Program-made: the position numbers and the translations under genes
Source of the DNA: Pontibacter kalidii
GTDB lineage: Bacteria; Bacteroidota; Bacteroidia; Cytophagales; Hymenobacteraceae
Assembly: GCF_026278245.1 (NCBI RefSeq)
Contig: NZ_CP111079.1
Location: 808,501-872,500, forward strand
Direction: 5' to 3'
Length of the DNA: 64,000 nucleotides
Part shown: piece after piece, positions 1 to 64,000 of the stretch
Numbering within the stretch: position 1 is the first letter of the stretch
Layout: each line of letters opens with the position of its first letter
The notes under the pieces: generated by a model
What the model was told of the DNA's origin: nothing
Database searches by the model: none
The model's input: the letters and a program-made list of their open reading frames with translations, nothing else

Positions 1-28
1 TAGGCTGCGCCATACTTAGGAGACGTAA

Positions 29-1165
29 ATGAGACCAACCCTTATACTTATACTTTTGGTGATGCTGTACACGCAGGCATGGGGGCAGGAGCGCAAACGG
101 GCCAGGGACTATGGCGTAAAGATAGGAGTGCTGCCAACAGGGAAGTATAATGCCATCACCGACGTGGACGGAATTCGTGTTGGCCAGACCACACTTATGC
201 AAGGAGAGCATATCCGCACCGGCGTCACGGCCATCCTTCCGCATGCGGGGAATATTTTCCAAGAGAAGGTGCCGGCTGCCATTTTTGTGGGCAACGGCTT
301 TGGCAAACTGGCCGGCAGCACGCAAGTGCAGGAACTGGGAAACCTCGAGACCCCCATCATACTTACCAACACCCTAGGCGTGGGCACTGCCCTGAACGCG
401 GTGGTAGGCCATACCTTGCAGCAGCCCGGCAACGAGCAGGTGCAGTCGGTGAATGCCGTGGTGGGAGAGACAAACGACGGCTATCTGAACGACATTCGGG
501 GCAGGCATGTGCGGGAGGAGCATGTGCTGGAGGCCATGCAGCAGGCAAAAGGCGGAGCGGTGCAGGAGGGAAATGTGGGTGCCGGGACGGGCACCGTGTG
601 CTTCGGGTTTAAAGGCGGCATCGGAACCTCGTCGCGTAAGCTGCCGCAGAGCGCGGGGGGCTATACCGTGGGCGTACTGGTGCAGACTAACTTTGGCGGT
701 GTGCTGCAGGTAAACGGTGTGCCGGTGGGGCAGGAACTGGACCAGTATTTCATGAACCAGCAGATCAAGGACAGCGCCGACGGCTCCTGCATGATCATAG
801 TGGCTACCGATGCGCCCGTGGATGCGCGCAACCTGGAGCGCATGGCCAGCCGGGCCATGCTGGGCCTTGCCAAAACAGGCGGTATCGCCTCCAACGGCAG
901 CGGCGATTACGTGATCGCCTTCTCCACCAACGAAGATTTACGCATTCCCTATACTTCAACTGATAAAACCCAGGCAACTCCTATACTTCGCAACGATGAA
1001 ATGTCGCCGCTCTTTATGGCGGTGATCGAGGCCACCGAGGAGGCCATCATCAACTCCCTGTTTATGGCCGAGACCATGACCGGCAAAGATGGTAGAAAGG
1101 TGGAGGCGCTGCCGCTTAACAAGGTTCTAAAGCTGTTAAAGAAACACCATGCAATCAACCCCTAA
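29..1165 (+). CDS. S58 (DmpA-type) P1 family aminopeptidase/D-esterase, exported
   Basis: A 378-residue protein with an N-terminal signal peptide (residues 1-20, hydrophobic core after Arg2, ending TQAWGQ), so it probably acts in the periplasm or at the envelope. The rest matches the DmpA/P1 peptidase fold: an early ITDVDGIRVGQTT segment and a late SNGSGDY segment. S58 enzymes self-cleave before a serine, which becomes the N-terminal nucleophile; Gly290-Ser291 is the expected site here. The family releases N-terminal residues from peptides or amides; the substrate is not readable from sequence. AGGAG lies 8 nt before the ATG, and the gene overlaps the next one by 17 bp, implying translational coupling. 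Codons 5-9 spell CTT-ATA-CTT-ATA-CTT, two copies of the dispersed AAGTATA motif. Confidence 0.88.
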   Translation: MRPTLILILLVMLYTQAWGQERKRARDYGVKIGVLPTGKYNAITDVDGIRVGQTTLMQGEHIRTGVTAILPHAGNIFQEKVPAAIFVGNGFGKLAGSTQVQELGNLETPIILTNTLGVGTALNAVVGHTLQQPGNEQVQSVNAVVGETNDGYLNDIRGRHVREEHVLEAMQQAKGGAVQEGNVGAGTGTVCFGFKGGIGTSSRKLPQSAGGYTVGVLVQTNFGGVLQVNGVPVGQELDQYFMNQQIKDSADGSCMIIVATDAPVDARNLERMASRAMLGLAKTGGIASNGSGDYVIAFSTNEDLRIPYTSTDKTQATPILRNDEMSPLFMAVIEATEEAIINSLFMAETMTGKDGRKVEALPLNKVLKLLKKHHAINP

Positions 1166-2003
1166 CTATGCCTACGTGCGCGGCCAGGTGCTGCCACTCG
1201 AGCAGGCCACGCTGCACATCAGCGACTTGTCCATCCAACGCGGCTACGGCGTGTTCGATTACTTCAGGGTATACAATGGCAAGCCCGTTTTCCTGGATGA
1301 CTACCTGGCGCGTTTACGCGCATCAGCACAGGCGCTGCACCTGCCGGTGCTGCTCTCGGATGATGAGTTGAAAGAGGTAGTCCAGGAGTTGATCCATAAA
1401 AATGCTATGCCTGCGTCCGGCATGAAGATGATTTTGACGGGAGGCTACTCTGCTAATGGCTTCGACCCTGCCGAGCCAAGCCTGGTTATACTTCAACAGC
1501 CGCTTAACCTGCCCGGCCCGGACATGCTGGAGAGGGGCATCAAAGTTATCACCCATGACTATGTGCGGGAGGTGCCGCGTGCCAAGACCATCAACTATAC
1601 CATGGGCATCCGGTTGATTGAGGAAATCCGCAGGCGCGGCGCCAGCGATGTACTCTACCAGCGCGATGGCGTGGTGTCGGAGTTTCCGCGGTGCAACCTG
1701 TTCATCGTAACCCATGAGGATACGGTGATAACACCTGCTGAGAACGTGCTGCTGGGCGTAACCCGGAAAAATGTACTGGCGTTGGCCGGCAAGAGGTATA
1801 AAGCTAAAGAGGGAACGGTGACGCTGGAGGACGTGTACCAGGCCAGGGAGGTATTCCTGACCAGCACCACCAAACGCATCCTGCCCATTGTGCAGGTAGA
1901 TGAGCAGGCGATCGGATCGGGTAAGCCGGGGGAGGTGACGCTCTCGCTGCTAAAGGACCTGATAAAGCTGGAGGAGGAAACAAGCCTGGTGCACAAAGTA
2001 TAA
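1149..2003 (+). CDS. Class IV (fold type IV) PLP aminotransferase
   Basis: A 284-residue class IV aminotransferase, the family of branched-chain aminotransferase, D-amino-acid aminotransferase and aminodeoxychorismate lyase. The N-terminus has the usual SIQRGYGVFDYFRVYNG segment. Lys146, in RAKTINY, is the expected pyridoxal-phosphate lysine, and the RCNLFIV and GVTRKNVL segments belong to the cofactor-binding half. It starts inside the end of the upstream peptidase gene and ends about 440 bp before ilvE, but the attenuator region between them suggests separate regulation. Substrate is uncertain: a second branched-chain enzyme, a D-amino-acid enzyme or an aminodeoxychorismate lyase are all possible. 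Its stop codon is supplied by a copy of the dispersed motif (AAAGTATAA). Confidence 0.85.
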   Translation: MQSTPNYAYVRGQVLPLEQATLHISDLSIQRGYGVFDYFRVYNGKPVFLDDYLARLRASAQALHLPVLLSDDELKEVVQELIHKNAMPASGMKMILTGGYSANGFDPAEPSLVILQQPLNLPGPDMLERGIKVITHDYVREVPRAKTINYTMGIRLIEEIRRRGASDVLYQRDGVVSEFPRCNLFIVTHEDTVITPAENVLLGVTRKNVLALAGKRYKAKEGTVTLEDVYQAREVFLTSTTKRILPIVQVDEQAIGSGKPGEVTLSLLKDLIKLEEETSLVHKV

Positions 2004-2065
2004 AGAAGGTCAGCCACTTTTGCCTCTAAAGCAAACGATTGCGTAAAAAATAAACCAAATTTATC

Positions 2066-2095
2066 TTGCATCTTCGGCACCAGCCTTTACATTTG
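2066..2095 (+). promoter_or_regulatory. Bacteroidetes-type housekeeping promoter before the ilv attenuators
   Basis: TTG at 2066-2068, a 19-nt spacer and TACATTTG at 2088-2095 match the Bacteroidetes sigma consensus (TTG at about -33, TAnnTTTG at about -7). Transcription would start near 2102, about 20 nt before the first leader ATG. A weaker overlapping alternative is TTG 2039-2041 with TATCTTG 2062-2068. Confidence 0.65.
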
Positions 2096-2121
2096 CATTC
2101 ATTAGAAAAGAAATTCAAAGT

Positions 2122-2202
2122 ATGAAGCAGCTAGTCCTATCCATTTCTATTATTATTCGCGTGGTCATTCCACGTGAAGTAGAGATGGTATGCCGACGCT
2201 GA
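2122..2202 (+). CDS. Leader peptide 1 of the ilv attenuator (26 aa)
   Basis: A 26-codon reading frame: after MKQ it reads LVLSISIIIRVVI, then PREVEMVCRR and a TGA. Ten of residues 4-16 are Leu, Ile or Val, so ribosome stalling would sense shortage of charged branched-chain tRNAs. It lies 20-30 nt after the predicted start of transcription, and an intrinsic terminator follows 27 nt after the stop. GAGATGG at 2182-2188, near the end of the frame, can pair with CCATCTC at 2232-2238, the 5' arm of the terminator. Stalling on the Ile/Val run would leave that antiterminator segment free. This is the classic attenuation layout; expression itself is inferred. Confidence 0.8.
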   Translation: MKQLVLSISIIIRVVIPREVEMVCRR

Positions 2203-2407: not shown

Positions 2408-2441
2408 ATGTATGAATATCTAACCTTATACTTTTAAAACC

Positions 2442-3323
2442 ATGTATTTCAACAGTAACACGCTCGTTTACCTCGACGGAAAATTTGTGAAGGCCGATGA
2501 TGCCTCCTGCTCCGTTTATGCCCAAAGCCTGCATTACGGTTTCTCTGTTTTCGAAGGAATCCGGTCTTACAAAACGCCGGATGGCACGCGTATTTTCAAG
2601 GCTGAGGAGCATTACGATCGCCTGCATTTCTCCTGCCGCACGGTTGGACTTCCGCTAAAGTACTCCGTGGCCGAGCTTACGCAGTTAACTTACCAGCTGC
2701 TGGAACTGAACAACCTGCAGGATGCCTACATCCGCCCGTTGGTTTATGCCGCAACGCCGAACATGAGCCTGACCGCACCGCAGGAGAGCAACCTGATGCT
2801 TGCGGCCTGGGAGTGGGGGAAGTATCTGGGTGATAGAACGCTGCGTGTGATGGTCTCTCCCTACGAGCGTCCAAACCCAAAGTCGGTGCCGGTGGAGGCG
2901 AAGGTTTCGGGACACTATGTGAACTCGACCGTTGCCTGCTCCGATGCCAAGGCCAAGGGGTATGACGAGGCACTGCTGCTGGACATGAACGGTTTTGTGG
3001 CCGAAGGCCCTGGTTCGAACTTCTTCTATGAGAAGGACGGGAAGCTTTTTACCGCGCCTCCCGGAAGTATACTTCGGGGCATCACCCGCAACACCATCAT
3101 CGATCTGGCCCGCGAAGCCGGTATAACCGTGCATGAAAAATTCTTTACTCCGGACGTGCTGCAAGAGGCGGATGCCGCTTTCCTGACGGGTACCGCGGCA
3201 GAGGTAGTAGGGGTGCAGTCCATCGATGCGCATGTTTTTAAAAAGCCGTTTGAGGAAAGTATTGGGGCCTTTTTAGCTCGGAGATATTCGGCCCTGGTAA
3301 CTGGCGGGCTTGTACCGGCTTAA
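2442..3323 (+). CDS. ilvE: Branched-chain amino acid aminotransferase
   Basis: A 293-residue class IV aminotransferase catalysing the last step of Ile, Leu and Val synthesis (2-keto acid plus glutamate). It has the usual LHYGFSVFEGIRSY start, PLP lysine Lys154 in EAKVSGHYVNS, and the EGPGSNFFYEKDGKLFTAPPG and TGTAAEV segments. Length agrees with bacterial IlvE (about 300 aa). It is the first gene after the tandem leader-peptide attenuator, which identifies the likely physiological signal as charged branched-chain tRNAs. The gap to ilvD is 276 bp and contains a possible terminator, so ilvD may have its own promoter. One Ser-Ile-Leu-Arg stretch is encoded through a full AAGTATACTT palindrome at 3064-3073. 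Confidence 0.95.
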   Translation: MYFNSNTLVYLDGKFVKADDASCSVYAQSLHYGFSVFEGIRSYKTPDGTRIFKAEEHYDRLHFSCRTVGLPLKYSVAELTQLTYQLLELNNLQDAYIRPLVYAATPNMSLTAPQESNLMLAAWEWGKYLGDRTLRVMVSPYERPNPKSVPVEAKVSGHYVNSTVACSDAKAKGYDEALLLDMNGFVAEGPGSNFFYEKDGKLFTAPPGSILRGITRNTIIDLAREAGITVHEKFFTPDVLQEADAAFLTGTAAEVVGVQSIDAHVFKKPFEESIGAFLARRYSALVTGGLVPA

Positions 3324-5318: not shown

Positions 5319-7014
5319 GGAGGCTAAAACCATTTCCGGGGCCGAGGCGCTCATACTTGCCCTGTTGGAAGAGAAGGTAGACACCGTCTTTGGCTACCCG
5401 GGCGGGGCCATCATGCCGGTGTACGACGCCCTGTACGACTATACAGCTAAGCTGAACCATGTGCTGGTGCGCCACGAGCAGGGAGGCATTCATGCCGGCC
5501 AGGGCTACGCGCGCTCCTCGGGTAAGGTAGGCGTGGTGTTTGCCACCAGCGGCCCCGGTGCTACCAACCTGGTAACCGGGTTGGCGGATGCACAGATCGA
5601 TAGTACGCCGCTTGTTTGCATTACGGGGCAGGTGTTCGCGCACCTGCTGGGCACCGACGCCTTTCAGGAAACAGACATCCTCAACATCACCACCCCGGTT
5701 ACCAAATGGAATTATCAGGTCACCGATGCGAGTGAGATACCTGATGTGCTGGCCAAAGCTTTCTATATTGCCCGAAGCGGTCGTCCGGGGCCGGTGTTGA
5801 TCGACATTACCAAGAATGCCCAGCTGCAGCAGTTTGAATTTACCGGTTATCAGCCTTGCAGACACATCCGCAGTTATAAGCCAAAGCCAACCGTGCGGCA
5901 CGAGTACATTGTGGAGGCGGCCGAGCTGATTAACCAGGCCAGAAAACCATTTATACTTTGGGGCCAGGGGGTGATGCTGGGTACGGCCGAGCAGGAGTTC
6001 AAAGCTTTTGTGGAAAAGAGCGGTATTCCGGCTGCCTGGACCATCCTGGGCGCAGGCGCCCTGCCCACTGACCACCCACAGAACGTGGGCATGCTGGGCA
6101 TGCACGGCAACTATGGCCCTAACGTGCTCACCAACGAGTGCGATGTGCTCATTGCCATCGGCATGCGCTTCGATGACCGCGTAACCGGCCGGCTGGACAA
6201 GTATGCCAAGCAGGCCAAAGTCATCCACCTGGACATAGACCCGACAGAGATCGGCAAGAATGTGCCAGTAACCGTGCCCGTGTGGGGCGATTGTAAGGAA
6301 ACGCTTCCGCTCCTGACCCAACTGGTGGAGGCAAAGGAGCACCAGGAGTGGCTGCAGCAGTTCCGGAAGTATAACGACCAGGAAGTGGAGGCGGTGATAC
6401 AGGAGGAGCTTTTCCCTACCTCCGAGGAGATGACGATGGGGGAGGTGATGCAGCAGCTCAACGAGCTGACGGACGGTAACGCCATTGTGGTATCGGATGT
6501 GGGGCAGCACCAGATGGTAGCCTGCCGCTATGCCCGGCTGAACCATACCCGCAGCAATATCACCAGCGGTGGCCTGGGCACCATGGGCTTTGCCCTGCCG
6601 GCTGCCATTGGCGCCAAATTCGGCACACCCGACAGAACCGTGGTGGCCGTGATTGGCGACGGCGGTTTTCAGATGACGCTGCAGGAAATGGGCACCATCA
6701 TGCAGAGCGGGATCGATGTGAAGATCCTGATCCTCAACAACCGGTTCCTGGGCATGGTGCGCCAGTGGCAGGAGCTTTTCCACGAGCGTCGCTACTCTTT
6801 TGTAGACATCACCAGCCCGGACTTTGTGAAAGTAGCCAGCGGCTATGGCATCAGCGGCAAAAGCATCAACAGAAGAGAGGAGCTAAGAATGGCGCTGCAG
6901 GAGATGCTCTCGCACAAAGGTTCTTTCCTTTTGGAAGTGATGGTGACCAAAGAGAACAACGTGTTCCCGATGGTACCGCAGGGATGTAGTGTAAGTGAGA
7001 TCAGGCTGAAATAG
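5281..7014 (+). CDS. ilvB: Acetolactate synthase large (catalytic) subunit
   Basis: A 577-residue thiamine-diphosphate enzyme, the first common step of branched-chain synthesis (two pyruvate to acetolactate, or pyruvate plus 2-ketobutyrate). The pyrimidine-binding half contains the catalytic glutamate Glu66 in VRHEQGG. The central domain includes RFDDRVTGR. The diphosphate-binding half shows the GDGGFQMT...ILNN motif, followed by FLGMVRQWQ. Length is normal. It overlaps ilvD by 38 bp and is followed after 23 bp by its regulatory subunit. A long open antisense frame across this gene is a composition artefact. Confidence 0.97.
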
Positions 7015-7037
7015 TAGCCGCATAAACAAGTATAAGT

Positions 7038-7646
7038 ATGCGTAACGAGACCCATACCGACAAGCAGGAGTTCAACATCACGGTTTATACCGAGAACCAC
7101 ATCGGGCTTCTCACCCGCGTTGCCATCATCTTCTCCCGGAGAAAGATCAACGTGGAAAGCCTCAACACCTCACCATCCGAGATCGAGGGCATTCACCGCT
7201 TTAACATCGTGATCACAGAAACAGCGGAAGTGGTGCGTAAGATAGCCGGGCAGATCGAAAAGCAGGTGGGCGTGCTGAAAGTATACTTCAACACCAACCA
7301 GGACGTGATCTGGCAGGAGATGGCCCTCTACAAAGTGCCTACCGATGTAATTGCCGAACGTGCCGTCGTGGAGCGCCTGCTGCGGGAGAACGGTGCCCGC
7401 GCCGTGGTGATCCGCAAGGATTATACCGTGTTCGAGACCACCGGCCAGCGCGAAGAGACAGACAACCTGATCAAAGTGCTGGAGCCTTACGGGCTGATCG
7501 AGTTCGTGCGCAGCGCCCGCATCGCTATCATCAAAGACAGCGAGGGCTTCCACCGTAAACTGCAGGAGTTCGAGCAAAGCGAGCCTGGCGACGAGGTGGT
7601 GGAGAACGAGTACCTGAGCAGCCGCGAGAAAGTTTTTACCATGTAA
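7038..7646 (+). CDS. ilvN: Acetolactate synthase small (regulatory) subunit
   Basis: A 202-residue regulatory subunit. An N-terminal ACT domain (about residues 9-85, YTENHIGLLTRVAIIFSRRKINVESL) would bind valine or another branched-chain end product and feed back on IlvB. The C-terminal part matches the ALS_ss_C region. It belongs to the long form (about 160-200 aa) typical of biosynthetic enzymes. It lies directly after ilvB in the same operon. KVYFN at about residue 82 is encoded across an AAGTATACTT palindrome. Confidence 0.93.
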   Translation: MRNETHTDKQEFNITVYTENHIGLLTRVAIIFSRRKINVESLNTSPSEIEGIHRFNIVITETAEVVRKIAGQIEKQVGVLKVYFNTNQDVIWQEMALYKVPTDVIAERAVVERLLRENGARAVVIRKDYTVFETTGQREETDNLIKVLEPYGLIEFVRSARIAIIKDSEGFHRKLQEFEQSEPGDEVVENEYLSSREKVFTM

Positions 7647-7653: not shown

Positions 7654-7739
7654 GACAAAAGACAAAGGACGTTTTGACAAAAGACAACACAATCGGGAAG
7701 TATAAAGCATCGATCTCTACTAGTCTTTTGTCCTTTGTC
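7654..7739. repeat. Inverted-repeat hairpin between ilvN and ilvC
   Basis: GACAAAGGAC (7661-7670) is the exact complement of GTCCTTTGTC (7730-7739). GACAAAAGAC occurs at 7654-7663 and 7676-7685 and is complementary to GTCTTTTGTC (7723-7732), so two alternative 10-bp stems compete for the same right arm. The loop contains GGGAAGTATAAAGC. There is no T tract, so a simple terminator is unlikely. An RNA-processing, stability or pausing element is possible. Confidence 0.6.
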
Positions 7740-7789
7740 AAACAGTCTTTCATCAAAAGTATAAATCAACCTTAAAACAAATTAAACCA

Positions 7790-8830
7790 ATGGCAACTAT
7801 CAATTTTGGAGGAGTAGACGAAACCGTTATCACCCGCGACGAATTCCCGCTGGCAAAGGCACGCGAAGTGCTGAAAGACGAGGTGATCGCCGTGATCGGT
7901 TATGGCGTGCAGGGCCCAGGCCAGGCACTGAACCTGAGAGACAACGGCTTTAACGTGATCGTGGGCCAGCGCCAGGATTCGGCCTCCTGGGAGAAAGCAA
8001 AAAGCGACGGTTGGGTAGAGGGCGAAACCCTTTTCTCGATCGAGGAAGCGGCGGAGCGCGGCACCATCATCGCCAACCTGCTGTCGGATGCCGGCCAGAT
8101 TGCCGTGTGGCCAACCCTGAAAGAAAGGCTGAAGCCAGGCAAAGCGCTATACTTCTCACACGGCTTCGGCATTACGTTTAAGGAGCACACGAGCATTGTA
8201 CCGCCTGCCGATGTGGATGTGATTCTGGCGGCCCCGAAAGGCAGCGGCACGAGCCTGCGCAGGCTGTTCCTGAGCGGCGGCGGCCTTAACTCTTCTTTCG
8301 CCGTGTACCAGGATGCCACAGGCAAAGCCTATGAGAAGGCTGTGGCGATGGGCATCGGCATTGGTTCAGGTTACCTGTTCGAGACTGACTTTAAAAAAGA
8401 AGTATTCAGCGACCTGACAGGCGAGCGTGGCGTGTTGATGGGCGCCCTGGCCGGTATCATTGAGGCACAGTACCAGGTGCTGCGTCAGCGTGGCCACTCG
8501 CCGTCGGAGGCTTTCAACGAAACCGTGGAAGAGCTAACCCAAAGCCTGGTGCCGCTGGTAGGCGAAAACGGCATGGACTGGATGTTCTCCAACTGCTCGG
8601 TAACGGCTCAGCGTGGCGCCCTGGATTGGAAAGGCAAGTTCAGAGAAGCAACACTGCCGGTGCTCAACGAGCTGTACGACAGCGTGGCCTCCGGCAAAGA
8701 GGCGGAGCGTACCATTCAGCGCGGCTCTACACCGGGATACCGCAAGGAACTGGAGGCAGAACTGGCAGAGATACGCGAATCAGAATTATGGCAAACGGGA
8801 GCAACGGTGCGTAAGCTCCGCTCCAAGTAA
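7790..8830 (+). CDS. ilvC: Ketol-acid reductoisomerase, class I
   Basis: A 346-residue IlvC that isomerises and reduces acetolactate or acetohydroxybutyrate to the dihydroxy acid. The Rossmann motif GYGVQGPGQALNLRDNG is followed by GQRQDSASWEKA, whose Arg and Ser residues are compatible with NADPH use, though this is inference. The GSGTSLRRLF and late SPSEAFNETVEELTQSL segments are typical of the family. It is the short class I form. It lies 143 bp after ilvN across a hairpin-forming gap and 8 bp before ilvA. Confidence 0.96.
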   Translation: MATINFGGVDETVITRDEFPLAKAREVLKDEVIAVIGYGVQGPGQALNLRDNGFNVIVGQRQDSASWEKAKSDGWVEGETLFSIEEAAERGTIIANLLSDAGQIAVWPTLKERLKPGKALYFSHGFGITFKEHTSIVPPADVDVILAAPKGSGTSLRRLFLSGGGLNSSFAVYQDATGKAYEKAVAMGIGIGSGYLFETDFKKEVFSDLTGERGVLMGALAGIIEAQYQVLRQRGHSPSEAFNETVEELTQSLVPLVGENGMDWMFSNCSVTAQRGALDWKGKFREATLPVLNELYDSVASGKEAERTIQRGSTPGYRKELEAELAEIRESELWQTGATVRKLRSK

Positions 8831-8838: not shown

Positions 8839-10110
8839 ATGGATAAAGATGTAGCTTTAGAGAATACCGTCGTAGCCCTGGAGAGGGTGCAGCGGGCGGC
8901 AATGAATTTGAGGGGAGTGATCTACAAGACGCCCCTGTTGCAGAACCACTGGCTTTCCCAGACCTATGGTGCCGACATTTACCTGAAACGCGAGGACCTG
9001 CAGATCGTGCGCTCCTACAAGATCAGGGGGGCGTACAACAAGATTTCTACGCTTTCTGCCCAGCAGGCGGAGCGGGAGATAGTGTGCGCCAGCGCCGGCA
9101 ACCATGCTCAGGGAGTGGCCTATGCCTGCCAGCTGCTCGGTATTAAAGGCTACATCTTTATGCCTGCCAACACACCCGCCCAAAAGGTGGGCAAGGTGCG
9201 GCTTTTCGGAAAGGATAAGGTGGAGGTGGTGCTTACCGGCAACACGTACGATGAAGCCTATGCCGCTGCCAAGGATTTATGTGATAGCCACGGCGCCACC
9301 TTTATTCACCCCTTCGACGACATGGCCATTGTAGAGGGGCAGGCAACGGTGGGCTTGGAGGTGCTGCAGGACGCTACCTTCGACATCGACTACTGCTTTG
9401 TGCCGATAGGCGGGGGCGGCTTGGCGTCCGGAGTGGCCAGCGTGTTCAAGCAATTGAGCCCGAAAACAAAGATCGTGGGCGTGCAGCCCATGGGGGCGCC
9501 TTCCATGTATACTTCCATCCGGGAGGACAGGCGGCAGGCGCTGGAAAGCATAGATAGCTTTGTGGACGGGGCCGCGGTGAAATGCCCGGGTGAGCTGACC
9601 TATGAGCTGTGCCGGGAACTGCTGGATGACATCGTGCTGGTGCCGGAAGGACAGGTTTGCGAAGACCTCCTGAAGATGTACAACGAGGAAGGAATCGTAT
9701 TGGAGCCGGCGGGTACGCTTACGGTGTCGGTACTGAAAACGTATGCTGATAAAATCGCCGGAAAGAACGTGGTCTGCGTGATCAGTGGCAGCAACAACGA
9801 TATCACCCGCATGGAGGATATAAAGGAGCGGGCCATGCAGCACCAGGGTTTGAAACACTACTTCATGGTGACTTTCAACCAGAAGCCCGGTGCCCTCCGT
9901 ACGTTCATGAACCAGGTGCTACACCCCAGCGATGACATCATCCATTTCCAGTACATCAAGAAGAACAACAAGGAAAAAGGCCCTGTATTTATCGGCATCG
10001 AGGTAAAACAGCCGCACGATGTGGAGAACATCAAGCACCGCATGGCCGAAGAGGGTTTTGCCTACGAATACTTGAACGGAAAGCAGGATTTCCTGAATCT
10101 GCTGGTGTAA
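8839..10110 (+). CDS. ilvA: Threonine ammonia-lyase (biosynthetic threonine deaminase)
   Basis: A 423-residue PLP enzyme converting threonine to 2-ketobutyrate, the first committed step to isoleucine. Lys61 in RSYKIRGAYN is the PLP lysine, and a PIGGGGLASG glycine loop binds the phosphate. The last 90 residues (HYFMVTFNQKPGALRTF...) form one ACT-like regulatory domain, so isoleucine feedback is likely. One regulatory domain rather than two matches the roughly 420-residue family. It is the last gene of the cluster; a strong terminator follows 20 nt after its stop. Confidence 0.94.
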   Translation: MDKDVALENTVVALERVQRAAMNLRGVIYKTPLLQNHWLSQTYGADIYLKREDLQIVRSYKIRGAYNKISTLSAQQAEREIVCASAGNHAQGVAYACQLLGIKGYIFMPANTPAQKVGKVRLFGKDKVEVVLTGNTYDEAYAAAKDLCDSHGATFIHPFDDMAIVEGQATVGLEVLQDATFDIDYCFVPIGGGGLASGVASVFKQLSPKTKIVGVQPMGAPSMYTSIREDRRQALESIDSFVDGAAVKCPGELTYELCRELLDDIVLVPEGQVCEDLLKMYNEEGIVLEPAGTLTVSVLKTYADKIAGKNVVCVISGSNNDITRMEDIKERAMQHQGLKHYFMVTFNQKPGALRTFMNQVLHPSDDIIHFQYIKKNNKEKGPVFIGIEVKQPHDVENIKHRMAEEGFAYEYLNGKQDFLNLLV

Positions 10111-10130
10111 ACCAACCCTATCTGAAAGTA

Positions 10131-10172
10131 TAAGTCTCCGCCGGGTGCATATCGGGCGGAGACTTATATTTT
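10131..10172 (+). terminator. Terminator of the ilv operon
   Basis: A 12-bp perfect stem, TAAGTCTCCGCC (10131-10142) with GGCGGAGACTTA (10155-10166), a 12-nt loop and a TATTTT tail. The 5' arm overlaps an AAGTATAAG copy of the dispersed motif. Confidence 0.85.
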
Positions 10173-10449
10173 ACAGGAGCTTAAAGTGCTGTACTCTGAA
10201 AGGATGAACGCCTGCTGCGGTAAGTCAAATGAATGTCAGGAAGTATAACAGCGATACTCCGGAAACGTAAGGCGCTGATTTTGCCTGATTAAAGAACAAC
10301 TCTCCCTGATTTCCCGGGATTGGTTTAACCCAAGGCATTTAGGGAGGAGTTTCGGCCTGGGAGAGCACCATAGCCCATCATGAAACATGCTGCCTGTAAG
10401 ACTCAGGGTGAACCGCAACTACGCCAGCAAAATCAAAATAACACACGCC

Positions 10450-11979: not shown

Positions 11980-12118
11980 GTTCAGAAGGAGTAAGGTGTC
12001 ATTTTGCGCACGACCTATTCGGTGTTTGCACAGGGAGATTTTAAGAGAACCTCTAGCGCTGTTTGAGATAATACATCATCCTTTTTCAAAACCTGAAGTA
12101 TAAAGCTGATAAAACAAC

Positions 12119-12155
12119 AAAGGCGGCACCCTGTTTCAGGAGCCGCCTTTGTTTA
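12119..12155. terminator. Bidirectional terminator between the ABC gene and the selO remnant
   Basis: AAAGGCGGC (12119-12127) pairs with GCCGCCTTT (12142-12150), with a 14-nt loop. The plus-strand tail is GTTTAT and the minus-strand tail is TTGTTGTTTTATC. It probably ended the ABC gene on the plus strand and the ancestral selO on the minus strand. Confidence 0.75.
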
Positions 12156-12166
12156 TACTTGCATTT

Positions 12167-12369: not shown

Positions 12370-12498
12370 CCCAGGGCGAGAGAAGCAGCATTGGGAACCA
12401 CTGTCAGGTGCTTCGCTATGGGAATCAGGGGAGAGAAGGTGTCCTAAGCAATTAGTAGTCAGAAAAGAATGCCACTAGTACAGGTGCTGAGTGGGGGG

Positions 12499-21086: not shown

Positions 21087-21092
21087 AATTTT

Positions 21093-49558: not shown

Positions 49559-49566
49559 GTATACCC

Positions 49567-49606: not shown

Positions 49607-49663
49607 CGGGCACCTTATTTTTTTATACTTCGCCAAGCTTTCAAAAATAAATCGCTCCGGATG

Positions 49664-55828: not shown

Positions 55829-56386
55829 ATGCAAACACCTAAACTTTTTATGCTGATGCTGGGCTGCAGGCCCGCCGGCAGAAACACCGAGCAGCACGAC
55901 ATGTTCTTCAGTGTGGCCGAAACGGTAAAAGACCTGGTGCCTGAGATCAAGGCTTTCTGGCCCGAGGCGAAAGGCAAGATTCACATAGACGCTTGGCGCG
56001 AGGTGACGCAGGTAAATGGCTATTGTATAAACGTGGTGCCGAAGGAGCAGGCGACCGAAGCCACAGACAAGCTTTTCTTCCTGAACCTGGGCGGGTACAA
56101 GCCGGGCGAGTTTGATGAGTTCCACTACAAGATGCTGGCTGTGGCCGGGGATACCGCCGGTGCCGTGCAACAGGCCAAGCAAACCGCCTTTTACAAGCAC
56201 ACCGGTTTTCAAGGAGCCACCTCGCACATCGACGATAAGTATGGCGTGGATGTGGATGAGTTTTTTGAAGTGCAGGATATTCTGCCGGAGGCCGTGAAGC
56301 AAAAGTATAGCCTGCTGGTCACCAAAACCAACAACGCGGCAGAAGACGAGCTGCACCTGGGGTACTTCCAGCTGCACAAGTTGTAA
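55829..56386 (+). CDS. DUF1543 domain protein
   Basis: A 185-residue soluble protein of the DUF1543 family. The recognisable parts are KLFMLMLGCRPAGRNTEQHDMFF near the N-terminus, IHIDAWREV, and FFLNLGGYKPGEFDEFHYKMLAVA. A second, weaker copy of the fold occupies the C-terminal third (HIDDKYGVDVDEFFEVQDIL, ELHLGYFQLHKL). Function is unknown for the family. It stands alone after the sigma operon terminator. Confidence 0.85.
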   Translation: MQTPKLFMLMLGCRPAGRNTEQHDMFFSVAETVKDLVPEIKAFWPEAKGKIHIDAWREVTQVNGYCINVVPKEQATEATDKLFFLNLGGYKPGEFDEFHYKMLAVAGDTAGAVQQAKQTAFYKHTGFQGATSHIDDKYGVDVDEFFEVQDILPEAVKQKYSLLVTKTNNAAEDELHLGYFQLHKL

Positions 56387-56492
56387 CACCAAAGTATAAG
56401 CTGGGCAAAAGGCGAGGTGGCCGGGCTGAAGGAACAAGTATTTGTTCGCTGCGTTAGTAGGGAAAGTATTTTAACCTAAAAGAACCGACGCT

Positions 56493-57188: not shown

Positions 57189-57281
57189 GACAAAAACTAG
57201 CAAACAGTAGCCAAGCCCGGTTTGTCATATAAGGCTTAGACCAAATTTTTACTGACATTTATACTTTAGCGTATGAATCTG

Positions 57282-57389: not shown

Positions 57390-58781
57390 ATGAAACTCTT
57401 TACACCCAAAGCTATACTTGTGCTGGCCTGTTTGCTGGCGCACACCGTTGCCTGGTCGCAGGCGGTGCCCCAAAAGCTGGCCGCTGCCTATAGTAAGTTC
57501 GAACAGGACCCGCAACTGCAGAATGCCATTGCCTCCCTCTACATCACAGATGCCAAGACCGGAGAGGTTATCTTCGACCGCAACAGCCGGATCGGGCTGG
57601 CGCCCGCCTCCACCATGAAGGTGATCACCAGCATCAGCGCCTACGAGCTGTTGGGCAGGGATTTCAGGTATGAGACAAAGTTTGCCTACCGCAAAAACAA
57701 GGGGAACAACGAGCTCGTCATACTTCCTTCCGGCGACCCTACCTTTGGCAGCTGGCGCTGGGCCGAAACCAAAGAAGACCAGGTACTGGCGGGACTGACG
57801 AAATCGCTGCAGCGCACAGGTATAAAATCCTATAAGCATGTAACGGTTGCCAACGAAGGCTGGAACGACGAGACCGTGCCCGACGGCTGGATGTGGCAGG
57901 ACATTGCCAACTACTACGGCGCAGGCCCGGCCAAGCTGAACTGGCGCGAAAACCAGTACGACGTTATACTCAGGTCAGGAACAAGTATAGGCGACCCGGT
58001 GGCGATCGTGAAAACGGTGCCGGAGCTGAACGGCTATGGCCTGCGCTCCGAGCTAACATCAGCCGCGGCCGGCACCGGCGACAATGCCTACATCTACTTT
58101 CCGCTTAGCGCGCCATCGGCCACCATCCGGGGTACTATCCCGGTAAACGAGAGCAGCTTTAAAATCTCGGGTGCCATGCCCTCTGCGGCACGCCAGTTTG
58201 TGAGCACTTTATCCGATACATTGCAGACGCTGGGCATCAAGCTGCCAAAGCAGCCGGTAGAGCACAACGCCCCGTTGCCTAATGGCTATACTGTGTTTCA
58301 CACCGTCACATCCCCTCCGCTGGATAGCATCATCTACTGGTTTAACCGCAAGAGCATCAACCTCTACGGCGAGGCGCTGGTGAAGACAATTGCCTACAAG
58401 CATACCTCCGACAGCCAGACAGGTAATGGTCTGAAGGAGATCCGTACTTTCTGGAAGCAGCGGGGCGTACCGGAAACAGAGTTGAGCATGGTGGATGGCT
58501 CGGGGCTGTCGCCGCTGAACCGGGTGACCACCCATGCCCAGGTACAGTTGCTGCAGCACGCTCAGTCGCAGCCCTGGTACAACGGCTTCTATGCTTCGCT
58601 GCCGGTGTTTAACGGCATGAAGATGAAAAGCGGCACCATACGCGGCGTAAAAGGCTTCTGCGGCTACCATCAGGGTAAGGACGGCAAGGAGTATGTCTTT
58701 TCCTTTATCGTCAACAACTACAACGGCTCGGCCTCCGCGCTTGTCAAGAAGATGTACCAGGTGCTCGATGAGCTCAAGTAG
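57390..58781 (+). CDS. dacB: D-alanyl-D-alanine carboxypeptidase/endopeptidase (PBP4, DacB)
   Basis: About 463 residues from the ATG at 57390. It is a periplasmic low-molecular-mass penicillin-binding protein of family S13. The signal peptide covers about residues 1-23. Motif 1 is PASTMK (Ser74, Lys77), motif 2 is RKSINLYGE, and motif 3 is MKSGTIRG, the KTG-like site. It trims or cleaves peptidoglycan peptide cross-links. Its normal length and all three motifs suggest an active enzyme. It stands alone, followed 30 bp later by a terminator. Confidence 0.93.
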   Translation: MKLFTPKAILVLACLLAHTVAWSQAVPQKLAAAYSKFEQDPQLQNAIASLYITDAKTGEVIFDRNSRIGLAPASTMKVITSISAYELLGRDFRYETKFAYRKNKGNNELVILPSGDPTFGSWRWAETKEDQVLAGLTKSLQRTGIKSYKHVTVANEGWNDETVPDGWMWQDIANYYGAGPAKLNWRENQYDVILRSGTSIGDPVAIVKTVPELNGYGLRSELTSAAAGTGDNAYIYFPLSAPSATIRGTIPVNESSFKISGAMPSAARQFVSTLSDTLQTLGIKLPKQPVEHNAPLPNGYTVFHTVTSPPLDSIIYWFNRKSINLYGEALVKTIAYKHTSDSQTGNGLKEIRTFWKQRGVPETELSMVDGSGLSPLNRVTTHAQVQLLQHAQSQPWYNGFYASLPVFNGMKMKSGTIRGVKGFCGYHQGKDGKEYVFSFIVNNYNGSASALVKKMYQVLDELK

Positions 58782-58812
58782 GCCTTTTCGGTAAAGTATA
58801 CTATAAATGCAA

Positions 58813-58840: not shown

Positions 58841-58857
58841 TTAGTTGAAGTATAGAA

Positions 58858-59517: not shown

Positions 59518-62500
59518 ATGAAAACGCACCCTGCGGTTAAATTCCTTTTGCTGATTACGGGCCTGATCCTATTACTGGTTCTGGGTGCTTTTCTTTTGCT
59601 TCCCCCGCTCTACGAGGCAAAAGCACCCGCCTACCTGCGCGCGAAGTTGGCTGGTAACTCAGACATGGTATTGGCTCCTTTACAGACGGAAATCTCCAGT
59701 TGGAAGAACTTCCCCTACTTAACGGTTTCATTCGACAATATCTCCTTAACAGACACCACGCAGGCCCACCCCCTGGAGGTGCTGCGTGTGCAACATGCAG
59801 AGGTGCTGCTGCCGCTGCTGCAGTTGCCAAACAGGGGCATCCGGATCAGCAAAGTATCTCTGGACGGGGTGTCTTTTCACCAGCGGGTAGACTCTGCCGG
59901 CAACAAGGTCAGCATCTCTTTCAGGAAAGATGAGAAAGAGGAACAGGACTCGGGCGGCTTTGCGCTAGATATCCGGCAGCTGCGCATCCGGAGTGCTCAA
60001 ATATTAAGCGAAAATCACTTCAAACAGAGCGCTTTCTCCCTGCAACTCCTAGACTCTGATCTGTCTGCGGAAGTAAAGGGCAACCGGCTGGAACTGAAGG
60101 GCAAACTACAAGGCCGAATCAACCATATCTCCAGCCGGGACCTGCAGCTTTTCCGGGACAGGGCGTTTACAGCCGACGCCGTTTATACTTTCGACCGCCA
60201 CAAGAAGCAGGGTCGGATAAAAGACAGTCGCGTCATCCTCAACGGGAACGAGGTGCTGATCTTCGGCACGCACCAGAAGGCCGTTCACGGCGTTGGCTCA
60301 GAACTGGATCTTCATTTTGAGGGAGAGCAGCCTTTCTTTTTTCTGCTAAACCAGATGGCCTCTGTGCGGTCTATCCCTTTGCTGAAGCAGGTGGAGAGCG
60401 ATGGCCGCGTGAAGCTGCAGTACCATATTGCCGGCCACTCCAGCCCCACGCAAAGGCCCCGCAGCAGGTTACACTTCGAGTTACAGGACGGCAGGCTGCA
60501 TTGGCCCACCAGCCGCATCACCCTGTCGCAAATACAGATCGCCGGGCAATTGGATAACGGCCCAAAGCACTCCCCCGAGTCGAGCTCCTTTACGCTGCAC
60601 CACCTGTCGGCCCGCACCGGCAACGACAGCCTGCAGCTCAAAGCCAACATCACCAACTTCAACAAGCCATACCTCGATGCCCAGCTGAGTGGGCGCTACA
60701 CTCTGGACAGCCTGGCCGAGGTTCTGCCGCCAGAATATGTTTCCCTGCCCCGGGGCATGCTTTCCGGTAACGTGGCCATTAAGGGGAACCTGCACGCCAG
60801 CGGGGACCGCCGGCAGGAGCAGGACCTGCAGTGGCAGGGGGCGATCAGCCTGCTCGGGGTCGGTTTTCAGCCGGCAAAGCTAACCGTGCCCTGCACAGAA
60901 GTAAATGGCGAAGCCAGGCTGGCAGGTAATGAGCTGCGACTGCACCAGCTTAGGGGCAAGGTCGGCGGGCGGGCGTTTGCCGTGGAGGGCTCCGTGAAAA
61001 ATGTGATGAATTACCTCCTGGGACAGCACCCTACAGTTTCAGTAGAGGGGGCAGTTAAACTAAAGCAGGTACAGACGGGCTGGATCAAGCTGGCGCCGGA
61101 GAATAAGACCATACCTGCCAAGTCAGATGCTGGCGCCGGGGAGGCCTCCACAACTATACTTCCCGGTTTCCTGCGCGTGAACATGCGCCTGCAGTGCGAG
61201 CAACTAGAGCTGCCGTCGGCTTCCGTTCAAAACATGCGGGCCCGGCTAAGGAGCGATGGGCGGCGGCTGACCCTCTCGGACATTGGCCTGACAACGCAAG
61301 GTATAGCGGTCAGTGGCAAGGTGTCGGTTCTGAATGACAGCAGGCAACTGTATGCCGCAGACCTGCAGCTGTCCGCCCGGCTCGATACCCTGGACCTGAC
61401 CAACATGGAGCAGATCAACTCCCTGGCCAGCGCAGCCGGCCCTAAAAAGTCTGCAGCGGCAAAAGGGAGCGGCTTGGATTATGTACTGCCACTGCAAAAG
61501 GCGCAAATCAACCTGCATGTAAAGCAGGTAAAGCTGCCGGGGGCGGAAGACCTGGAAAACCTGTCGGTGCAGCTGAATAAAAACAGGAGCCATGTGCTGA
61601 TGCGGGACATGCTCTTTCAAACCTCAAAAGGTGGTGCTGCTACTGCTTACGGTGGCTTTTACCTCATCAACTCGACAATTACCCGGCCTTACCTGGATGT
61701 GACCATGCAGTATGGTTTCCTCGACCTGCAGGCCTTTATGCAGAACATCGCCGCACTCAAAACGCTGCTTCCGCCAGCGGAGGCCGAGCCATTGCCGGAC
61801 AAGACTAATGGAAAAGACAAGCGCAGGGAGAAAGTATACGACCTGGGCCTGCACGTGAAGGCGCAGGAGCTCCGGTATGAGTACCTTACAGGGACAAACC
61901 TGGCCATCGACGCCCGCATGAACCGGGAGCAGGCACAGTTGGACAAGCTATACCTGAACGCTTTCGGGGGAACCATCTACGCACAGGGCGTGATGTACCT
62001 CAACGAGCCTTCCGACACCATCCCGGTCCGGCTGAAGGCGCAGGTACAGGAGGTGGACCTAGAGCAGCTGTTTGCCGTGGCCGAGCAGATGGAGCTGGAT
62101 ATGCTGGAGAGCCGGAACATCAAAGGCAAGGCTGACTGCAACGTGGCCGTTTTTACCAAACTCGACCAAGCCTTTGTTCCAAGTTTCGACCGCACGGTCG
62201 CCTATGCCAGCACTACTTTCCGTGACATGGAACTGATCAATGTGAAACCCATACAGGAGGCGCTCGGCTTTATGCGGGAGGAGCGGACCGGGCACCTGTA
62301 CTTTGAGGATGTGGCGGCAGATTTCGTGCTCTACAAAAACAAATTCGTGGCACCCGGTTTCAGCTTGAACAACAACCTGTCGGCCTTCGACCTGCGGGGA
62401 TCCTATACCATGAAAGGTAGCGCGCGCCTAAGTCTAGACGTGAATGTGTTCAATATTCTGTTCGGGAATAACGAGCGCCGCATAGGGCAGATACAGGAAG

Positions 62501-62685
62501 ACTCGCTATCCCTGAACAGCAGCCAGAACAAGCAGCACCTGTTGCTAGTGCGCGAGGAGGAAAAGTATAAGGTGAAGCTGAGCAACAGCAAAGAAAGAGA
62601 AGATATCTCGCAGGTGCTCTGCGATGAGTTCATGGATGTGCTACAGCACTACCAGATCGATACCGCCTTCACCGAAATCCAATAG
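59518..62685 (+). CDS. AsmA-family (AsmA-like) envelope protein
   Basis: A 1055-residue protein with a single N-terminal membrane helix (about 8-31, FLLLITGLILLLVLGAFLLL) and a very long periplasmic beta-rich body of AsmA/TamB-like repeats (LYEAKAPAYLRAKLAGNSDMVLAPLQTEISSWKNFPYLTV near the start). The C-terminal part resembles the AsmA_2 region (NIKGKADCNVAVFTK, GHLYFEDVAADFVLYKNKFVAPGFSLNNNLSAFDLRG). AsmA-like proteins are thought to form lipid channels between membranes. It stands alone, and its codons match the core genes. Confidence 0.88.
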   Translation: MKTHPAVKFLLLITGLILLLVLGAFLLLPPLYEAKAPAYLRAKLAGNSDMVLAPLQTEISSWKNFPYLTVSFDNISLTDTTQAHPLEVLRVQHAEVLLPLLQLPNRGIRISKVSLDGVSFHQRVDSAGNKVSISFRKDEKEEQDSGGFALDIRQLRIRSAQILSENHFKQSAFSLQLLDSDLSAEVKGNRLELKGKLQGRINHISSRDLQLFRDRAFTADAVYTFDRHKKQGRIKDSRVILNGNEVLIFGTHQKAVHGVGSELDLHFEGEQPFFFLLNQMASVRSIPLLKQVESDGRVKLQYHIAGHSSPTQRPRSRLHFELQDGRLHWPTSRITLSQIQIAGQLDNGPKHSPESSSFTLHHLSARTGNDSLQLKANITNFNKPYLDAQLSGRYTLDSLAEVLPPEYVSLPRGMLSGNVAIKGNLHASGDRRQEQDLQWQGAISLLGVGFQPAKLTVPCTEVNGEARLAGNELRLHQLRGKVGGRAFAVEGSVKNVMNYLLGQHPTVSVEGAVKLKQVQTGWIKLAPENKTIPAKSDAGAGEASTTILPGFLRVNMRLQCEQLELPSASVQNMRARLRSDGRRLTLSDIGLTTQGIAVSGKVSVLNDSRQLYAADLQLSARLDTLDLTNMEQINSLASAAGPKKSAAAKGSGLDYVLPLQKAQINLHVKQVKLPGAEDLENLSVQLNKNRSHVLMRDMLFQTSKGGAATAYGGFYLINSTITRPYLDVTMQYGFLDLQAFMQNIAALKTLLPPAEAEPLPDKTNGKDKRREKVYDLGLHVKAQELRYEYLTGTNLAIDARMNREQAQLDKLYLNAFGGTIYAQGVMYLNEPSDTIPVRLKAQVQEVDLEQLFAVAEQMELDMLESRNIKGKADCNVAVFTKLDQAFVPSFDRTVAYASTTFRDMELINVKPIQEALGFMREERTGHLYFEDVAADFVLYKNKFVAPGFSLNNNLSAFDLRGSYTMKGSARLSLDVNVFNILFGNNERRIGQIQEDSLSLNSSQNKQHLLLVREEEKYKVKLSNSKEREDISQVLCDEFMDVLQHYQIDTAFTEIQ

Positions 62686-63298: not shown

Positions 63299-63384
63299 TA
63301 GCAAGCTGCAAAGAAGGTGCGGTAAAGAACACCGGGGCGGAATTATGTTCTTAGCAATAGGCTAAGTGCGTAAGCTTAGAGAAA

Positions 63385-63831
63385 ATGCTACGCTGGAAAG
63401 ACATCATTTACTATGCTAAATACAGCAATCCGGAACCTGCCAGTAGGGTAGAAAAAACGGAGGAGGAGTGGAAACAGCTGCTGAAGCCGGCACAGTACCG
63501 TGTGCTGCGGGAAAAGGGAACCGAGCCTCCTTACCGAAATGCCTACTGCCGGTCGTATGAACCCGGCAAGTATACCTGTGCCGGGTGCGGAAGCCTTTTG
63601 TTTAACTCCACCGAAAAGTACCATGCCATTTCCGGCTGGCCTAGTTTTACTCAACCCGCCAAAAGGGGCGCCGTCAGGTATGCCTTCGACAGCAGCCATC
63701 ATATGGAGCGGATAGAGGCGCTGTGCAATGTATGCGGTGGCCACTTAGGGCATGTGTTTCCGGATGGCCCGGAGCCAGCGGGCCTGCGTTACTGCATCAA
63801 CTCGGAAAGCTTGCATAGAATGGCCAAATAA
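63385..63831 (+). CDS. msrB: Peptide-methionine (R)-S-oxide reductase
   Basis: A 148-residue MsrB that repairs methionine-R-sulfoxide in proteins. The zinc site is two Cys pairs (CAGC and CNVC), the substrate region includes GWPSFTQP and HMERIEALCN, and the catalytic Cys lies in LRYCINSESL. It lacks an obvious signal peptide, although the N-terminal 35 residues are longer than the minimal domain. It is near DoxX and the 3' edge of the window. Confidence 0.93.
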   Translation: MLRWKDIIYYAKYSNPEPASRVEKTEEEWKQLLKPAQYRVLREKGTEPPYRNAYCRSYEPGKYTCAGCGSLLFNSTEKYHAISGWPSFTQPAKRGAVRYAFDSSHHMERIEALCNVCGGHLGHVFPDGPEPAGLRYCINSESLHRMAK

Positions 63832-63840
63832 TAGGTTGTT

Positions 63841-63857
63841 TACTAATAATATTAGTA
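63841..63857. repeat. AT-rich palindrome after msrB
   Basis: TACTAATAATATTAGTA is a perfect 8-bp inverted repeat around one central base, 10 nt after the msrB stop. There is no T tract. It could be an operator or a weak terminator. Confidence 0.4.
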
Positions 63858-63932
63858 TTATGGGTTGTAATAACTTTAAAATGGAAACATGATGTTCTGT
63901 TTTGCGTAAAATATTAGCAAAAACAGAAAAGT

Positions 63933-64000
63933 ATGAAGCTGAAAATAGATGAAAAACCATTTCTACCGGAAGGCCGGCACGTGGTGAAAATAACGGAAGT
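63933..64000 (+). CDS. Start of a gene truncated by the window edge
   Basis: An ATG at 63933 opens a frame that stays open to the edge (MKLKIDEKPFLPEGRHVVKI...). Only 22 codons are visible and I cannot assign a family. A GTATGAAG copy of the dispersed motif variant overlaps the start. Confidence 0.5.
   Translation, partial: MKLKIDEKPFLPEGRHVVKITE

Follow-up and report, generated by a model that had tools for sequence, protein, structure and literature searches.

AAGTATA, an over-represented DNA word of Pontibacter kalidii with species dialects across the genus, as a candidate DNA-uptake sequence

The heptamer AAGTATA is a DNA-level, genome-wide, double-stranded and non-palindromic signal in Pontibacter kalidii, and the genus uses species dialects of this word that share a common core and follow phylogeny. 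The window analyzed here is a 64,000-nucleotide stretch of the chromosome (G000:C1:808501-872500, G000 being the label of the source genome), for which an earlier note had reported a strong excess of the word. We consider it probable that AAGTATA works like a DNA-uptake sequence (DUS), operating without a type IV pilus motor, as a candidate rather than a proven member of that class; the basis for this reading is a sharp non-palindromic motif, the lack of strand polarity, scarcity on plasmid DNA, dialects composed of a core plus variable positions, genomes carrying two dialects, and a co-retained transformation pathway. The dialects, the examination of pilus genes and the linked loss of competence genes are additional to the earlier note.

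Abundance and distribution of AAGTATA

The estimate of about 86 copies in the window against about 8 by chance was accurate: there are exactly 86 (48 on the plus strand and 38 on the minus strand; 1.34/kb), where base composition predicts 8.4 and dinucleotide-preserving shuffles of the window (n = 100) gave 6.44 +/- 2.65, with a maximum of 15 and none reaching 86. A maximal-order Markov model of the window did not flag AAGTATA as over-represented; this model is blind to the word because its sub-words ATACTT and TATACT are inflated along with it. The whole genome (5,054,860 bases, two contigs) carries 4,451 forward and 4,410 reverse copies, 8,861 in total (1.75/kb), compared with 356 (170 + 186) of the reversed word, a 25-fold excess. 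The signal is thus genome-wide, as had been proposed, and the window, with a density below that of the genome, is not exceptional. In a 444-kb sample of the chromosome (the window and 19 further 20-kb stretches spread along it), to which the counts below refer unless stated otherwise, the Markov-background check proposed earlier gave 834 copies (1.88/kb) versus 58 expected under an order-2 model and 61 under an order-3 model with the motif masked.

The motif is sharply defined. Single-base variants of AAGTATA number 29-156 copies each, except AAGTATG, with 304 copies versus 57 expected; the cost of one base change is therefore 5- to 29-fold, or 2.7-fold for AAGTATG, and AAGTATG and AGGTATA are the two clearly enriched variants in this genome. 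The base 5' of the word is seldom T (97 of 832 sites), and the base 3' of it is mostly A or G (A at 480, C at 142 and T at 33 of the 832). The frequent extension to AAGTATAA noticed previously was found at 46 of the 86 window sites, whereas the palindrome AAGTATACTT, also described as frequent, has two copies in the window and is not a favoured extension.

The word occurs on both strands, in genes and between them, and is not specific to coding DNA, in agreement with the earlier description. DNA outside called genes makes up 22% of the sample and holds 422 of the 834 sites; a further 214 are sense, 182 antisense, and 16 on gene edges. Within coding DNA all six codon frames are occupied on both gene strands. 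The distribution is not uniform, however, as had been supposed: the density is 4.31/kb outside called genes versus 1.14/kb within them. Genes were called with a simple in-house caller (38 genes in the window) that misses some island genes, and the fraction outside genes is therefore inflated. In gaps of 20-600 bp, density is 8.9/kb between convergent genes, 4.5/kb between co-directional genes and 2.5/kb between divergent genes. Orientation is even in 150-nt 3' flanks (67/64 and 59/56), and in called genes of at least 450 bp there are 210 sense versus 178 antisense sites (p = 0.12) without clear bias to gene termini; as a side observation summed from position bins, sense and antisense sites lean in opposite directions, 119 of 210 sense sites lying in the 3' half of the gene and 103 of 178 antisense sites in the 5' half. 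A promoter, RNA or terminator signal was rejected because sites show no preferred orientation, either with respect to genes or within 3' flanks, although they are denser in convergent than in divergent gaps. Codon or peptide bias was rejected because all six frames are used. The check for replichore bias, with replichores set by GC skew per stretch and two near-zero-skew stretches excluded, found 403 leading and 363 lagging sites (n = 766, p = 0.16), and Chi and KOPS were rejected on this lack of polarity.

Despite being AT-rich, AAGTATA is commoner in GC-rich DNA (5-kb bins; Spearman 0.30, p = 0.005), at about 2/kb in bins above 50% GC and 0.8-0.9/kb below. In the low-GC part of the window (12.4-39.3 kb) it falls to 0.93/kb, versus 2.02 and 1.46/kb in the adjoining parts. 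It is scarcer still on plasmid DNA. A 20-kb stretch of contig C2 has 11 copies; it matches, at 95% identity, a segment of a Pontibacter actiniarum plasmid that carries conjugation genes and is typed as mobilizable; two 50-kb stretches of the P. actiniarum plasmid have 27 and 12. The three plasmid stretches thus range from 0.24 to 0.55/kb. In having fewer sites on horizontally acquired or conjugative DNA, AAGTATA resembles DUS and uptake signal sequences (USS).

A mobile or interspersed repeat was rejected, in line with the earlier judgement that the motif is non-mobile: beyond one base before and two after AAGTATA, the flanks hold at most 0.03 bits per position. Frequent 12- to 14-mers containing the word are mostly tandem motif pairs or A-rich extensions, and one AAGTATA-bearing 16-mer recurs eight times. 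There are 81 same-orientation clusters of 2-5 sites with steps of up to 40 bp, accounting for 191 of the 834 sites; close pairs are strongly same-orientation in AAGTATA genomes and less so in genomes of the AGGTATA dialect (see below). Some stretches of the source genome (L002, L005, L011, and L012) contain one-orientation intergenic arrays of AAGTATR with recurrent linkers (e.g., GCTC, GCCA, ACCC) and steps of 7, 8, 11, 12, 19, and 22, some of them adjoining GC-rich palindromes. Across the sample (L001-L019 plus the window), palindromic and other long words recur as well (16-mers up to 10 times, 20-mers up to eight times), and these are probably dispersed intergenic repeats resembling repetitive extragenic palindromes.

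The features of the window are as follows (coordinates, strand, feature):

1..64000, no strand, chromosome stretch with 86 AAGTATA, 1.34/kb
43..49, minus, AAGTATA site
49..55, minus, AAGTATA site, tandem with preceding 43..49, step 6
143..149, plus, AAGTATA site
950..956, minus, AAGTATA site
982..988, minus, AAGTATA site, step 32 from 950..956
1487..1493, minus, AAGTATA site
1996..2002, plus, AAGTATA site
2427..2433, minus, AAGTATA site
3065..3074, no strand, overlapping plus and minus AAGTATA, palindrome AAGTATACTT
5952..5958, minus, AAGTATA site in thiamine pyrophosphate-enzyme (ilvB-like) gene
6367..6373, plus, AAGTATA site in thiamine pyrophosphate-enzyme (ilvB-like) gene
7028..7034, plus, AAGTATA site
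7279..7288, no strand, overlapping plus and minus AAGTATA, palindrome AAGTATACTT
7698..7704, plus, AAGTATA site
7757..7763, plus, AAGTATA site
8148..8154, minus, AAGTATA site in ketol-acid reductoisomerase gene
9508..9514, minus, AAGTATA site in threonine dehydratase-like gene
10126..10132, plus, AAGTATA site
10241..10247, plus, AAGTATA site
10606..10612, plus, AAGTATA site
11816..11822, minus, AAGTATA site
12096..12102, plus, AAGTATA site
12154..12160, minus, AAGTATA site
12400..39300, no strand, low-GC (42.3%) stretch, surface-polysaccharide genes, motif-poor (0.93/kb)
12814..12820, minus, AAGTATA site
14501..14507, plus, AAGTATA site
17320..17326, plus, AAGTATA site
18984..18990, plus, AAGTATA site
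19259..19265, minus, AAGTATA site
19351..19357, minus, AAGTATA site
19803..19809, plus, AAGTATA site
19834..19840, minus, AAGTATA site
21984..21990, plus, AAGTATA site
23276..23282, plus, AAGTATA site
24467..24473, minus, AAGTATA site
27566..27572, plus, AAGTATA site
28120..28126, plus, AAGTATA site
28285..28291, minus, AAGTATA site
28482..28488, plus, AAGTATA site
29594..29600, plus, AAGTATA site
33249..33255, minus, AAGTATA site
33313..33319, minus, AAGTATA site
34538..34544, minus, AAGTATA site
34797..34803, minus, AAGTATA site
35314..35320, minus, AAGTATA site
36027..36033, minus, AAGTATA site
36689..36695, plus, AAGTATA site
38594..38600, plus, AAGTATA site
38658..38664, plus, AAGTATA site
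40088..40094, minus, AAGTATA site
41163..41169, minus, AAGTATA site
41248..41254, minus, AAGTATA site
41327..41333, plus, AAGTATA site
42539..42545, plus, AAGTATA site
42547..42553, plus, AAGTATA site, tandem with preceding 42539..42545, step 8
43406..43412, plus, AAGTATA site
43438..43444, plus, AAGTATA site, same-orientation cluster, step 32
43535..43541, plus, AAGTATA site
43566..43572, plus, AAGTATA site, same-orientation cluster, step 31
43610..43616, plus, AAGTATA site
43766..43772, minus, AAGTATA site
44064..44070, minus, AAGTATA site
44130..44136, plus, AAGTATA site
44367..44373, plus, AAGTATA site
44624..44630, minus, AAGTATA site
44952..44958, plus, AAGTATA site
46989..46995, plus, AAGTATA site
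49557..49563, plus, AAGTATA site
49624..49630, minus, AAGTATA site
50224..50230, minus, AAGTATA site
50277..50283, plus, AAGTATA site
50867..50873, minus, AAGTATA site
53940..53946, plus, AAGTATA site
56303..56309, plus, AAGTATA site
56392..56398, plus, AAGTATA site
57260..57266, minus, AAGTATA site
57413..57419, minus, AAGTATA site
57983..57989, plus, AAGTATA site
58794..58800, plus, AAGTATA site
58848..58854, plus, AAGTATA site
60184..60190, minus, AAGTATA site
61155..61161, minus, AAGTATA site
61832..61838, plus, AAGTATA site
62563..62569, plus, AAGTATA site
63568..63574, plus, AAGTATA site

The polysaccharide stretch also encodes three proteins of 248-288 codons on the minus strand (29620-30438, 32389-33132, and 34796-35659) that are similar by eye and that we take to be LicD-like.

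Dialects and site turnover in the genus

Comparison with related Hymenobacteraceae, as advised earlier, showed that the abundance of AAGTATA varies widely within Pontibacter. Among 50 whole genomes of the genus (genome sizes rounded), 23 are AAGTATA-rich at 0.82-2.53/kb, five have 0.43-0.59/kb, and 22 have no more than 0.38/kb. Elsewhere in the family (154 genomes from five genera), the word is at most about 2.5 times as frequent as the reversed word, and in 22 genomes from other families at most twice as frequent; outside the genus, AAGTATA was the only dialect word counted. That the Pontibacter genomes with low or intermediate AAGTATA have lost the signal was rejected for most of them: AAGTATA is low in many genomes because other words are used there. 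These alternative words were exposed by k-mer counts on stretches of 16 such genomes and confirmed by whole-genome counts.

AGGTATA is present in 5,748-9,303 copies in each of 12 genomes (control 226-357), and these 12 species form one group in a midpoint-rooted rpoB+rpoC tree (support of 100 in the Shimodaira-Hasegawa-like approximate likelihood-ratio test, SH-aLRT). A second group of seven species in the same tree (SH-aLRT 100) carries AACTATA, with 12,524-13,168 copies in G206, G212, G030, and G018, 11,674 in G211, 8,118 in G026, and 6,094 in G032. The last three are two-dialect genomes, also holding 5,110 (G211), 7,552 (G026), and 9,116 (G032) copies of AAGTATA, and G217, which is not in the AACTATA group, combines 10,614 AAGTATA with 3,531 AACTATA. 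In the sampled stretches of G215 (L186-L190), TATATAA occurs 108 times in 100 kb versus 18.6 expected and ATATATAA is enriched, a possible fourth dialect without G or C. A clear dialect is therefore present in 40 of the 50 genomes (23 + 12 + 4 + G215); it is weak in G007 (mixed) and G036 (3,132 AGGTATA), and absent from eight (G002, G023, G024, G025, G027, G033, G210, and G214, the call for G024 being based on whole-genome counts plus 20 kb). The dialects share the template A-N-N-T-A-T-A-R, with the G215 word in the same register, and the three counted dialects seldom have T at position 8 (33/832, 25/493, and 5/173).

Beyond these words, no comparable word was found in 40 kb of G062, from another genus, or in 80 Bacteroidota-dominated loci of 5-22 kb, with one outlier excepted. 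A 21.7-kb locus of Flavobacterium pectinovorum (L034) has 15 CAGGGAC versus 0.8 expected, which may be a local repeat. Two of the genomes without a TATA dialect have mild 7-mer excesses (ACAACGA, 26 versus 4.8, in G023, L214-L216; AATAATT, 32 versus 5.9, in G025, L203-L205) that may be coding effects or unrelated signals.

Site turnover was followed by comparing the 20-kb rpoB region between pairs of 11 AAGTATA genomes; the pairs are not independent. AAGTATA was conserved identically at 720 of 1,330 aligned sites, versus 1,782 of 4,570 for 16 control words, and sites that differed did so most often by one substitution, which fell at several positions. The AGGTATA sites of the AGGTATA group have AAGTATA as their most frequent partner in the AAGTATA group (210 of 1,108 cases) and AGGTATA in only 35, while AAGTATA sites of the AAGTATA group align with AAGTATA in 375 of 1,523 and with AGGTATA in 210 of 1,523. 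This alignment between dialects is what in-place switching of many sites would produce, and conserved coding sequence in the rpoB region may contribute part of it.

Candidate uptake function and competing explanations

ComEC, DprA, and ComEA-like proteins share one known role, transformation. In Riemerella anatipestifer, another member of the Bacteroidota, ComEC, DprA, and a helix-hairpin-helix protein are described as essential for transformation (PMC8459023). Each of the 50 Pontibacter genomes has a comEC match (PF03772), interrupted by stops in G009 and G021 alone, and dprA (TIGR00732) scored above cut-off in 48, the failures being the same two genomes; the chance of two independent broken pairs coinciding is 1 in 1,225. 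Each of these genes has two or more lesions in each genome, whereas the frames of rpoB, rpoC, and long genes nearby are open. Among the matches listed, 49 of the 50 genomes have an open frame for a ComEA-like protein (304-346 residues, two helix-hairpin-helix matches), which is fragmented in G021. The decay of comEC and dprA appears independent in G009 (L278 and L279) and G021 (L280, L281, and L282), with the ComEA-like gene also affected in the latter, and these are putatively two natural competence-loss lineages. We read the joint retention of these genes and their two losses as suggesting selection for transformation in the genus; their tie to the motif is weaker.

If AAGTATA serves in DNA uptake, a surface or outer-membrane DNA receptor would bind the TATA core and read neighbouring bases that differ between dialects, such that motif-bearing DNA, mostly from the same species, would be taken up preferentially. 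The incoming DNA would pass via the ComEA-like protein and ComEC, and DprA and RecA would recombine it into the chromosome. Fragments with a site would be taken up more often, and therefore alleles in which a point mutation creates a site would be copied into the population more than alleles in which one destroys a site, as in the model of biased uptake plus mutation drive (PMC1939737). Sites would accumulate to about two per kilobase where tolerated, above all between genes, and a shift in receptor specificity would lead to the genome being rewritten to a new dialect, with mixed genomes in between.

Candidate receptors were considered and rejected. No full PilB/PilT/GspE-type ATPase (PF00437) was found in the 50 genus genomes, where matches are partial, spanning about 40-70 of the 370 positions and scoring no more than 25.9 bits, with three reaching or barely passing the cut-off; full-length matches occur in four of the 154 genomes from other Hymenobacteraceae genera (G067, G105, G168, and G181), such an ATPase being rare in the family. 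A type IV pilus receptor was accordingly rejected for the genus, and without the pilus motor a receptor must differ from the Neisseria pilin ComP, a ComP-like pilin receptor being unlikely here. The DUF5689 surface protein of the Riemerella system is present in 22 of 50 genomes and is missing from several motif-rich ones (it was not found in G000, G013, G014, or G208).

Several observations weigh against an uptake function, the lack of a full pilus motor ATPase among them. The comEC neighbourhood of the source genome yielded no receptor candidate. Motif loss does not track competence-gene loss: eight dialect-free genomes keep open comEC, dprA, and ComEA-like genes, and therefore the coupling between these genes and the motif is not tight. 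In G009, where comEC and dprA are dead, the genome's dialect is not reduced (ratio to control 27.0, the seventh lowest among the 12 genomes of its group). G021 ranks lowest by two ratios in its own group of 12 (AAGTATA/control 8.8, AAGTATA/AGGTATA 2.98), but this depletion is that of one genome, and by density G020 is lower. The motif-rich G018 has a comEC frame of 561 residues (G018:C23:51507-52310), versus 702-736 in most genomes, which may be a truncation. Control genomes also carry comEC and dprA, 10 of 14 in each case, and therefore presence alone says little. In 10 outgroup-polarized trios of the rpoB region there were 14 gains of the motif versus 27 losses (47 gains and 50 losses for ten control words); these counts, of few events, do not support net gain in that region. 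Close pairs are tandem rather than inverted, whereas uptake-sequence pairs in Neisseria and Haemophilus are inverted.

The earlier note had assigned the word to a class of short genomic signals that includes uptake sequences, Chi, KOPS, HIP1 (a highly iterated palindrome, HIP), and nucleoid-protein sites; the class is supported, but the lack of strand polarity weakens the case for Chi and KOPS, and the non-palindromic sequence of AAGTATA weakens that for HIP1 proper. A HIP-like process is nevertheless the main rival to uptake, because alternate HIPs also replace one another. Here, an orphan DNA methyltransferase with a species-specific target would, through strand-directed mismatch repair, enrich its own site, and dialects would follow changes of specificity. 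HIP1 is about as dense, some cyanobacteria swap alternate HIPs together with matching methyltransferases, and HIP deviations are also terminal (PMC4390886), as is that of the commonest one-off word, AAGTATG; in addition, the TATA core common to the dialects is a 4-bp palindrome, and motif loss in genomes with open competence genes would be easier to accommodate. We nonetheless judge this explanation unlikely: unlike HIPs, AAGTATA is non-palindromic, occurring in the contexts AAGTATAA, AGGTATAG, and AACTATAG, and no mismatch class dominates among the 14 gains (a small sample), which comprise 12 single substitutions at five of the seven motif positions (three of them transversions), one gap, and one multiple change. 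A role in chromosome organization, in which selection would keep a site about every 0.5 kb for a nucleoid-associated or domain-forming protein, is consistent with the dense, non-polar spread, the scarcity on plasmid DNA and islands, and the same-orientation short-linker clusters, which resemble cooperative binding arrays. Nucleoid-type binding proteins usually have degenerate sites, however, and AAGTATA is sharp; enrichment in all frames within core genes at thousands of places would demand strong selection per site, and the rewriting of thousands of sites between close species requires a driver, making this role unlikely as well.

A functionless bias of mutation or repair, with the word generated by a sequence-specific repair enzyme or by short-repeat slippage, finds some support in the same-orientation tandem clusters, mainly of the source genome, which suggest that local duplication adds some copies. 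It is improbable as a general explanation, given that the clusters hold just 191 of the 834 sites, that sites arise via several kinds of substitution, that three dialects keep one template and an aversion to T at position 8, and that the word is scarce on plasmid DNA. Chi sequences are over-represented and differ between genera, the sole point in favour of a recombination signal read by an AddAB- or RecBCD-like nuclease; with neither polarity nor a base composition to match (AAGTATA is AT-rich) and an enrichment far beyond that of Chi, such a signal is highly improbable.

Comparison with known uptake systems

Uptake in both Pasteurellaceae and Neisseriaceae proceeds via type IV pili. Short genomic uptake sequences are described for these two families (PMC7811141). 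Searches of the open-access literature found, among the matches listed, no report of an uptake sequence for Bacteroidota, Hymenobacteraceae, or Pontibacter; no over-represented motif reported for Pontibacter; and, judged by the titles of part of the matches, no description of an AAGTATA/TATACTT signal. One article mentions Pontibacter together with natural transformation. We see an even chance that the Pontibacter words constitute a third group of DUS, with a separate origin in Bacteroidota, three or four dialects, a new pilus-independent receptor, and dialects acting as recombination barriers between species. If so, this would be a third case of uptake specificity, pilus-free and from a different phylum, in which 40 of 50 species have a clear dialect; two-dialect genomes would be switches caught half-way, receptor specificity could be mapped via comparison of dialects, uptake signals would be suggested to arise by a general drive, and Pontibacter would offer a natural experiment on the formation of recombination barriers. 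Should the word have another function, its 25-fold excess across the genome, its dialects and the lack of any known reader would pose an equally open problem.

Riemerella anatipestifer resembles Pontibacter in belonging to the Bacteroidota and in the kinds of transformation genes, which are kept in Pontibacter and lost together (PMC8459023); the phrase "uptake sequence" does not appear in the main text of that article, and the Riemerella surface protein is of the DUF5689 family. Cyanobacterial HIP1 and its alternates are similar in a density near one per kilobase and in being replaced by other words in some species; they are, however, palindromic and matched by methyltransferases (PMC4390886), and AAGTATA is not palindromic. 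With the USS of Pasteurellaceae, AAGTATA shares a genome-wide motif attributed to biased uptake plus mutation and a graded enrichment of near matches (PMC1939737), although the sequences are unrelated, Pontibacter lacks the pilus motor, and a bias to gene termini is reported for USS (PMC2346458). The closest parallels are with the DUS of Neisseriaceae, which also occur in thousands of copies per genome as fixed-core dialects following the tree, with one genome known to have two dialects in similar numbers and some genomes of the family having none (PMC3630211). The density described there in 2013 as the highest for DUS was 5,918 in 2.4 Mb (PMC3630211), and AAGTATA-type dialects reach about 3 per kb in Pontibacter; DUS distributions have also been used to detect conjugative elements (PMC7371117). 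The Pontibacter motif differs from DUS in its length (7-8 bp versus 10-12 bp), its core (TATA versus CTG), its phylum, its tandem pairs, and the lack of a pilus motor or ComP-type receptor.

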